Shown: positions 9,101 through 41,767 of the stretch, piece by piece | Position numbering within the stretch: the first letter of the stretch is position 1 | How the letters are laid out: every line of letters starts with the position of its first letter | Assembly: GCF_003730195.1 (NCBI RefSeq) | Contig: NZ_QWGG01000003.1 | Location: 1-64,000 of the forward strand | Reading direction: 5' to 3' | Length of the DNA stretch: 64,000 nucleotides | DNA from: Halosimplex salinum | Lineage (GTDB): Archaea > Halobacteriota > Halobacteria > Halobacteriales > Haloarculaceae | The notes under the pieces: generated by a model | The model's database searches: none | Told to the model about the DNA's origin: nothing | What the model saw: the letters and a program-made list of their open reading frames with translations, nothing else | Made by a program: the position numbers and the translations under genes

Positions 9101-9171
9101 GCGCCGTTGGTCCAGTGGTAGGACATTAGCTTCCCAAGCTAATAGCCCGGGTTCAATTCCCGGACGGCGCA
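9101..9171 (+). tRNA. tRNA-Gly (anticodon CCC)
   Basis: Acceptor GCGCCGT pairs with ACGGCGC, followed by discriminator A. The anticodon stem TTAGC/GCTAA encloses TTCCCAA, giving anticodon CCC, and the T arm is CCGGG/CCCGG around TTCAATT. No intron is present. A dispersed repeat element starts 5 nt after the tRNA. Confidence 0.96.
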
Positions 9172-9176
9172 TGCTA

Positions 9177-9294
9177 CCATCTTTTTCCGCGCGGGGTTTC
9201 CTCGGTCGCCTCCGGCGACCTGCGGGAACCCCGCACGCAAAAACATGGGTGAAAAAGGCCGGACGACTCGGTCGCTTCGCTCCCTCGCGTCCGG
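9177..9294 (+). repeat. Dispersed two-hairpin intergenic element, copy A
   Basis: The element reads CCATCTTTTTC, then a G+C-rich hairpin (GGGGTTTCC ... GGGAACCCC), then the core CAAAAACATGGGTGAAAAA, then a second hairpin (GGCCGGAC ... GTCCGG). Two more copies occur near 41.0-41.3 kb. This copy follows tRNA-Gly directly, so its T-run may end the tRNA transcript. It has no coding capacity that I can defend. Confidence 0.8.
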
Positions 9295-40406: not shown

Positions 40407-40985
40407 TCAGAACTCGGCCTCGACCGACCCGTCCTCGGAGAGGTCGACGACGCCGTCGAACCGCGCCCGGAGGTCCGCCAGTTCCGCGTCGTCGTGGACG
40501 CCCTTCGCGAGGTGGAACAGCCCGACGGCGTCGTGTTCGTCGAGCAGTTCGAGGATGGCGTCGACCGCTTCGCCCGCCCGTTCGGCGTTGGAGTAGTAGA
40601 TCATCTCCGTCACCGAGTCGAGGCTGACCCGCCGTTTCCCGTCGGTGGATTCGAGGAACGCTCGCGTCTCCTCGACGATCCCGTCCAGGTCGTCCGGCGC
40701 GGAGACGTACTTGACGTTCTCGGACTGGCGGCGCGTGTAGCCCCGTTCGACCGACAGCGCGTCGAGGATGGTCGCCCGGTCCTCGTCCACCTCGTAGTGT
40801 TCGAGCTTCTGGCGTACCTCCCGGGCGGTCGTCCGCGTCGAGATGACCAGCATGTGGTCGGTGTCCGTGCTCAGAAAGTCCGTGTCGATGCGGTCTGTCT
40901 CGCCCGTGCTCGGATGCACGAGGAGGATCCCGGTGCCACCCGGCACCGTGTCCGGCGTGTTGTCGATGGCGAGGCGGTAATCCAT
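40407..40985 (-). CDS. Conserved haloarchaeal protein, possibly RecA/KaiC-like
   Basis: A 192-residue soluble protein. A strand with phosphate-loop-like context (GTGILLVHPSTGETDRID, about 18-35), the segment MLVISTRTTAREVRQKLE (about 44-61) and a late VGLFHLAKGVHDD recall haloarchaeal RecA-superfamily proteins that have lost Walker A. No GKT or GKS is present, so ATP binding is doubtful. Function unknown. A repeat element begins 46 bp upstream of the start codon. Confidence 0.7.
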   Translation of the reverse strand: MDYRLAIDNTPDTVPGGTGILLVHPSTGETDRIDTDFLSTDTDHMLVISTRTTAREVRQKLEHYEVDEDRATILDALSVERGYTRRQSENVKYVSAPDDLDGIVEETRAFLESTDGKRRVSLDSVTEMIYYSNAERAGEAVDAILELLDEHDAVGLFHLAKGVHDDAELADLRARFDGVVDLSEDGSVEAEF

Positions 40986-41031: not shown

Positions 41032-41142
41032 CCATCTTTTTCGCCGGGAGATTTCCTCGGTCGCTCCGCTCCCTGCGGGAACCCCCCGGCCAAAAACATG
41101 GGTGAAAAAGGCCGCCTCCGGGGGCTTCGCCCCCTCCGGCGG
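41032..41142 (+). repeat. Dispersed two-hairpin intergenic element, copy B
   Basis: Same plan as copy A: CCATCTTTTTC, hairpin (GGGAGATTTCC ... GCGGGAACCCCCC), core CAAAAACATGGGTGAAAAA, and a strong second hairpin (GGCCGCCTCCGGGGG ... CCCCCTCCGGCGG). It starts 46 bp upstream of the gene at 40407-40985. It and copy C point towards each other across about 96 bp rich in small hairpins (CTCGCTTCGCTCGG, CGCGCGAACGCG). The gap 40986-41344 contains no gene. Confidence 0.8.
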
Positions 41143-41238
41143 TGAAACACCTCGCTTCGCTCGGCGTATGCCAGCGACACTGCCCTCACACCACAACCGC
41201 AGTCGGCATTCGCGCGAACGCGGTGAGCGCGATTCACC

Positions 41239-41343
41239 GAACCCGAGCGGAGCGAGGGTTCGGATTTTTTCACCCATGTTTTTGCCGTGAGGGTGCCCGC
41301 AGCGAACGAAGTGAGCGAGGACACCCGAGCGGGAAAAAGATGG
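41239..41343 (-). repeat. Dispersed two-hairpin intergenic element, copy C (inverted)
   Basis: On the minus strand it reads CCATCTTTTTC, hairpin (CCGCTCGGGTGTCC ... GGGCACCC), the identical core CAAAAACATGGGTGAAAAA and a hairpin CCGAACCCTCG/CGGGTTCGG. It begins one base after the stop codon of the minus-strand gene at 41345, in the place of a terminator, just as copy A follows tRNA-Gly. Confidence 0.8.
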
Positions 41344-41344
41344 T

Positions 41345-41767
41345 CTAGAAGACAGAGTCCGCGGTCGCGGCGCCGACGACGCTGAAGATGGCGCCGACGC
41401 CGACGGCGCGGGCGGTCACCGCGGCCCGCTCGGCCATCGGGAGGTCGCCGAGGAAGGAACTGGGCGCGGTCAGCGTGAGCGCGAGGATGGCGACCGAACC
41501 GTAGGAGACCAGCATGAGCGAGACGAAGCGGATGGGGATGCCGACCACCTCGGCCTCGCTGTCCGGGTCGCGGTCGTCGTCGGCCTCGTAGAGGGCGCCG
41601 TAGCCGATGCCGAAGACGATGGCCACAGTCACCGCGGCGTGACCCCAGCCCATGTTCGTGGCCAGGCCCCACACCTCCTCGGTGACGACGAACGGCCCGG
41701 CGAGCAGGAACCCGCCGACGACCTGCTGGGCCGAGTCGGCGAGCCTGTAGCGCGGCGCCCGTGCCAT
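41345..41767 (-). CDS. Membrane protein of the DUF2391 type
   Basis: A 140-residue membrane protein with about four helices (roughly 14-34, 43-60, 79-104, 116-138). The N-terminal RLADSAQQVVGGFLLAGPFVVTEEVW and the SLMLVSYGSVAILAL helix match the small integral membrane family that I know as DUF2391. Function unknown. The next upstream minus-strand gene (41832) is also a four-helix protein, 64 bp away. Confidence 0.78.
   Translation of the reverse strand: MARAPRYRLADSAQQVVGGFLLAGPFVVTEEVWGLATNMGWGHAAVTVAIVFGIGYGALYEADDDRDPDSEAEVVGIPIRFVSLMLVSYGSVAILALTLTAPSSFLGDLPMAERAAVTARAVGVGAIFSVVGAATADSVF

Follow-up and report, generated by a model that had tools for sequence, protein, structure and literature searches.

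The analyzed window, a 64,000-nucleotide stretch of the Halosimplex salinum genome, contains three copies of an intergenic element that belongs to a haloarchaea-wide family. Judging from their sequence, the family members probably act as bidirectional transcription terminators or insulators with rapid hairpin turnover. The elements share a covarying structure, lie at gene boundaries and occupy orthologous sites in related species, and their hairpins turn over and are shared between copies.

Copies in the window

A sequence-only reading of the window had described a 19-base core between two hairpins. The core, CAAAAACATGGGTGAAAAA, is indeed exact in all three window copies, with 0 matches in 100 shuffles, and CCATCTTTTTC stands upstream of hairpin 1 in 3/3 of them. 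Copy 1 is located on the + strand, where its 5' arm CCATCTTTTTC (9177..9187), carrying T5C on that strand, begins 5 nt past the tRNA-Gly gene (9101..9171, +); the same arrangement is found in H. aquaticum and H. pelagicum. The arm is followed by a type A hairpin 1 (9188..9237) with UCCUCG...UGCGGG and the fixed U.G wobble, by the core (9238..9256), whose AAAAA/ATGG pairs with the arm and whose opposite strand reads TTTTTC...TTTTTG, and by hairpin 2 (9257..9294). Copy 2, also on the + strand, is composed of the arm CCATCTTTTTC (41032..41042), situated 46 nt ahead of the start codon of gene 40407-40985 (-), a type A hairpin 1 (41043..41090), the core (41091..41109), hairpin 2 (41110..41142) and a block of TGAA, hairpin 3 and ATGCC (41143..41172). 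In copy 3, on the - strand, the arm CCATCTTTTTC (41333..41343) lies 1 nt past the TAG stop of gene 41345-41767 (-), and the type A hairpin 1 (41285..41332), core (41266..41284), hairpin 2 (41237..41265) and TGAA, hairpin 3 and ATGCC (41205..41236) follow.

As first noticed, copies 1 and 3 directly follow a gene, at 5 nt and 1 nt, respectively; copy 2 follows no gene and adjoins the promoter of gene 40407-40985. Hairpins 1 and 2 of the window copies form as first noted, at z -1.65 to -4.67 on the first-read strand and z -3.9 to -6.3 on the opposite one. The third hairpin (TGAA-stem-AYGY), 3' of hairpin 2, occurs in many copies, among them 2 and 3, and is missing from copy 1 and its two orthologues.

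Architecture and base pairing

The element is intergenic, measures about 105-170 bp and follows the consensus N-N-A-(C)C-TTTTT-C, hairpin 1, (C)AAAAA-nn-T-N'-N'-nnn-AAAAA, G-hairpin 2, TGAA, hairpin 3, AYGY. The arm and core had been regarded as fixed and single-stranded; together they form an outer stem, in which CCAT/TTTTT of the arm pairs with AAAAA/ATGG of the core with C.C mismatches, so that pairing within the hairpins alone gives an incomplete picture. The arm-core triplet covaries as CCA/TGG, CGA/TCG, GGA/TCC, GCA/TGC, GTA/TAC and GAA/TTC, all but CCA/TGG coming from other genera, and the arm variant CCACC is matched by CGTGG (5 copies, with GCG) or GATGG (5 copies, with GGC). Nothing inside the element pairs with the second A5 of the core.

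Hairpin 1 occurs as three types: A (UCCUCG...UGCGGG), B (a plain hairpin) and C (longer); the U.G pair of type A is kept in 60/69 copies. Watson-Crick pairs at six anchored stem positions amount to 82-113/129, as opposed to 41-70 with shuffled partners. When 35 type A copies are aligned, 92.3% of the cells pair, compared with 79.7% after shuffling and 44-56% after sliding. The stems vary yet keep pairing, as had been claimed: the same 35 copies contain 123 two-sided, doubly compensated changes against 41 in shuffles, and only 3 one-sided changes. The strand of the folded form is indicated differently by two measures, with fold energies better on the opposite strand in 108/135 copies and lower-stem mismatches (13 G.U vs 41 A.C) revealing no preference for the sense strand.

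Symmetric UC/UC internal loops recur in the stems of most copies; on the other strand they are tandem G.A mismatches. A mini-hairpin in the core (CA-TGGG-TG) fits CATGGGTG, CGTGGGCG and CCTGGAGG and fails in TCTGGACC and CCTGGACT, and is thus not general. A coding reading (MGEK from ATGGGTGAAAAA) was ruled out, because the hairpins are freely variable and the copies are intergenic, with 1/126 inside a predicted gene.

Distribution among haloarchaea

The exact core has 28 matches in the 5.07 Mb genome, plus about 25-26 with 1-3 mismatches, and the reversed core pattern has 1. The proposal of a dispersed family under structural constraint is supported. The exact core was also detected in Halosimplex, Halovenus, Halarchaeum, Halorhabdus, Salinibaculum and haloarchaeal MAGs, and tens of copies are present in each of eight Halosimplex genomes (8/8). 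A covariance model built from the 35 type A copies matches 51/59 genomes of Halobacteriales, spanning its families; the per-genome copy counts of this search are to be read as "at least", 60 candidates per genome having been scored. In a phylum sample, the model matches 11/15 genomes inside Halobacteriales and 0/85 outside. The possibility that only the three window copies exist and that no relative has them is excluded by the genomic core matches and by the 51/59 relatives.

Position at gene boundaries

Positions were counted using gene calls from a home-made finder based on codon usage. In 56/75 copies the 5' edge comes 0-5 nt after a co-oriented stop codon, and in 22/51 it is spaced 37-41 nt from a divergent start codon; at the divergent starts, the AT profile places BRE/TATA immediately outside the element edge. 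Genes for tRNAs (Gly, Pro, Arg) stand in for the stop codon at several loci. The 3' side is loosely placed relative to genes. Among nine genomes of other genera, the edge is -2 to 6 nt from the stop in 23/35 copies, and the start spacing of about -40 is not clearly repeated (2/23 at 40-42), in part owing to a finder that had been trained on Halosimplex and overlooks tRNAs.

By spacer type, 126 copies divide into 43 convergent, 57 tandem and 26 divergent, and the 366 background spacers of >=100 nt into 55, 192 and 119, respectively. In the H. salinum genome, the upstream genes include those for EF-2, ProRS, an AAA ATPase, the thermosome, PTH2, CDP-archaeol synthase, an SdhA-type flavoprotein and the beta subunit of a TPP/PFO-type oxidoreductase, and among the promoters abutted by the element are those of HisRS, a cytidylate-kinase-like protein and a DEAD helicase. 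After some stops the 5' arm is doubled or tripled, ACCATCTNGTT-ACCATCTTTTTC (L001, L018, L019, L051, L064, L083; L314); the upstream arm lacks the T5 run, as if it were the footprint of an earlier element.

Orthologous sites and hairpin exchange

Orthologous sites were mapped by one flank, mapping by both flanks having given a single site. In 67 cross-genome copy pairs the 5' flank is shared up to the element edge, with a median flank identity of 88.7%. Hairpin 1 similarity at orthologous sites is 0.34 (57 comparable pairs), against 0.35 for random pairs from the same genome, and the hairpin 1 type differs in 32/67 orthologous pairs. An occupied orthologue was identified for 24/48 of the genome's own copies, from a few per cent of each relative's genome; the relatives' loci had been chosen by the presence of the exact core, and empty sites are therefore under-sampled in this count.

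Protein look-ups, which are free of this bias, revealed an intact copy at the EF-2 gene end in 3/7 Halosimplex genomes and copies of other subfamilies (CGA/TCG, GTA/TAC) in other genera. The ProRS gene end, where orthologous loci were recognized by position, has a similar subfamily mixture, once in the opposite orientation. At these two gene ends several relatives have no copy, so no single site is essential, and the mixed occupancy indicates that sites are kept, decayed and refilled. Copy 2 is kept at the promoter of the orthologue of gene 40407-40985 in H. aquaticum, and CCATCT-like remnants occupy the same place in other species.

At the tRNA-Gly site, hairpin 2 is similar among three species (0.83-0.93) and hairpin 3 is absent in all; the hairpin 1 of window copy 1 differs from those of its orthologues (0.46-0.47). 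Within one genome, sites that are unrelated, flanks included, can carry an identical hairpin 1, often together with a different hairpin 2. Hairpin 1 looks like a cassette that turns over inside a retained element, and it is swapped between copies, probably via ectopic gene conversion or template switching at the short identical arms.

Predicted function and alternative explanations

A transcript arriving in one direction would reach CTTTTTC (T5C) about 5-15 nt past the stop codon, and one arriving in reverse would run through hairpin 3 and hairpin 2 before reaching a pair of T5 tracts spaced 8 nt apart (TTTTTCACCCATGTTTTTG). At promoters, the element could halt the read-through of the upstream gene just ahead of BRE/TATA, and could also halt divergent upstream transcripts. 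T5C is a strong terminator in Haloferax, with 95% termination measured in vivo, and a T-stretch plus TC is seen at the intergenic termination sites there (PMC7237163). Within <=80 nt past stops in the H. salinum genome, 40 T5 runs were counted vs 11 A5 runs, the T5 mostly followed by C. The terminator-like character suggested earlier is supported by T5C on both strands at gene ends, from which termination is predicted. The second A5 of the core, conserved without a partner, needs another reason, and the opposite-strand T5 supplies one.

A bidirectional terminator or insulator accounts for the convergent, tandem and promoter-side positions, and the convergent share (43/126 copies vs 55/366 background spacers) speaks for it. 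The 26/126 copies between divergent genes, least expected for a plain gene-end terminator, count against it and would be explained only if upstream antisense transcripts need stopping. A further point against it is that T-tract termination in archaea needs no elaborate hairpins. With tens of copies for about 5 Mb, the element is not the general terminator.

We consider it possible, although rather unlikely, that the element is a selfish mobile repeat without a transposase (REP/MITE/PATE/SMR-like), whose T-tracts are incidental and whose edges seem exact for the sole reason that insertions into genes and promoters were lost. Genomes do carry tens of copies each, some in tandem arrays; one genome has three identical copies within a longer repeat; different subfamilies and both orientations occur at the same ProRS or EF-2 gene end; and hairpin 1 can be identical at unlinked sites. 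However, neutral loss would not produce edges clustered 0-5 nt from stops and around -40, occupied sites are common to species and genera, and the copies are without terminal inverted repeats, short target duplications (repeats of about 10 bp or more were tested) and a transposase within 4 kb. The strong compensatory changes in stems, the arm-core triplet covariation and the better folding of the opposite strand (108/135 copies) would suit a structured 3'-UTR or regulatory RNA, acting in stability or protein binding with the folded RNA as the functional form. This appears improbable, given that G-U intermediates are nearly absent (3 one-sided vs 123 two-sided changes), that lower-stem mismatches show no sense-strand preference (13 G.U vs 41 A.C), and that many copies are found ahead of promoters or in divergent spacers. 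Compensation without G-U steps, palindromic arms and an edge identical at stops and promoters point towards a DNA-level structure, such as a cruciform or a nucleoid-protein binding site at boundaries, with pairing upheld by template switching and symmetry instead of selection on RNA; the fixed mismatches and the U.G wobble (60/69 type A) are unexpected in a pure DNA palindrome, and the T5/A5 conservation would stay unexplained, and we regard this explanation as very improbable.

Beyond the bidirectional terminator or insulator that we favor, we can only speculate, and think it unlikely, that the elements form a new class of transcription-boundary element, in which a dedicated mechanism would place or keep them at unit edges (stop +0-5 or outside BRE) and swap the hairpin cassette, with the outer triplet as a subfamily pairing key. 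For haloarchaea, the element would amount to a portable insulator with a selected position and a free sequence. It would also serve as a clean natural test of whether T-tracts suffice for archaeal termination or structure contributes as well, and the near-total hairpin turnover at ~89% identical flanks allows hairpin exchange or template switching to be measured directly in polyploid archaea.

Comparison with known repeats and terminators

CTTTTTC lies at the 5' edge, 0-5 nt past the stop in 56/75 copies, as in T-stretch terminators, and a hairpin followed by a U-tract is present on the opposite strand (hairpin 2, T5) and absent on the first-read strand. Bacterial bidirectional intrinsic terminators have a hairpin and then a U-tract on one strand and T-tracts on both. 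The element resembles them in these respects; unlike them, it has the T-tract before the hairpin on its other strand, and it is met by archaeal RNA polymerase. Like the T5C terminators of Haloferax volcanii (PMC7237163), it carries T5 and then C soon after the stop, and it has T5C on both of its strands; the difference is that the T5C of this predicted terminator is embedded in a conserved two-to-three-hairpin repeat with arm-core pairing.

The suggested REP/MITE label is not supported, as the listed copies lack the GTAG/CGTC tag, terminal inverted repeats and Y1 or TnpB genes within 4 kb. The GTAG/CGTC tetranucleotide beside a 20-40 bp palindrome is absent, the element edges being CCAYC... 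and AYGYT, and no terminal inverted repeats were found between 5' CCAYCTTTTTC and 3' AYGYTCAGTA. Neither of the two Y1 genes in the genome, sought as a linked RAYT/Y1 transposase, adjoins a listed copy, and the nearest TnpB is about 4 kb from one. The GTAG/CGTC families with RAYT (PMC3733652) are likewise dispersed extragenic palindromes with a fixed unpaired tag; the element differs from REP in its missing GTAG/CGTC tag, larger size, lack of a linked RAYT and unconserved stem sequence. Above the Rfam gathering score, tRNAs alone match in the window, and at a low threshold the best matches of copies 2 and 3 are far under the cut-offs. A literature search with partial journal coverage returned no paper matching the element.

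The nearest described haloarchaeal repeats, in the part of the literature available to us, are the SMRs and PATEs of Haloquadratum walsbyi (PMC3119063). As far as the accessible text of that source goes, they are similarly haloarchaeal, palindromic and transposase-free, about 110 bp long and present in up to about 50 copies. Unlike the element, SMRs have terminal inverted repeats and target IS605/PATEs, and PATEs are described as sharing IS605 ends; siting at stop codons or promoter edges does not feature in that text. The same text reports unrelated sequences at identical positions, as deletion-coupled insertions, and these may be the same phenomenon at strain level.

Duplications and related repeats

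For 13/142 copies, the element is flanked by direct repeats of about 30-98 bp that exceed the control maximum. These repeats duplicate the 3' end of the neighboring gene, usually with part of the element, and resemble tandem duplications; the other copies have no flanking repeat above control in a test covering repeats of about 10 bp or more. Where a duplicate lies beside the arm, one extra base occurs exactly 4 nt from the edge at about nine independent loci (left flanks of L138, L139, L147, L149, L034, L120, L079, L031 and L102). One genome (G020) contains three identical GTA/TAC copies (L220, L224, L228) embedded in a longer repeat whose inverted ends, ACTGCYCASTA / TANTGRGCA, are imperfect; this repeat may be a MITE carrying the element. 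The same genome holds a tandem array of ten copies repeating every 171 bp (L250, G020:C1:2703788-2705428). Four loci (L130, L131, L133, L145) carry another module downstream, GTCAGAGC...GCTCTGAC, in place of the usual hairpin 2, and an 8-mer of this module occurs 25 times in 0.82 Mb.
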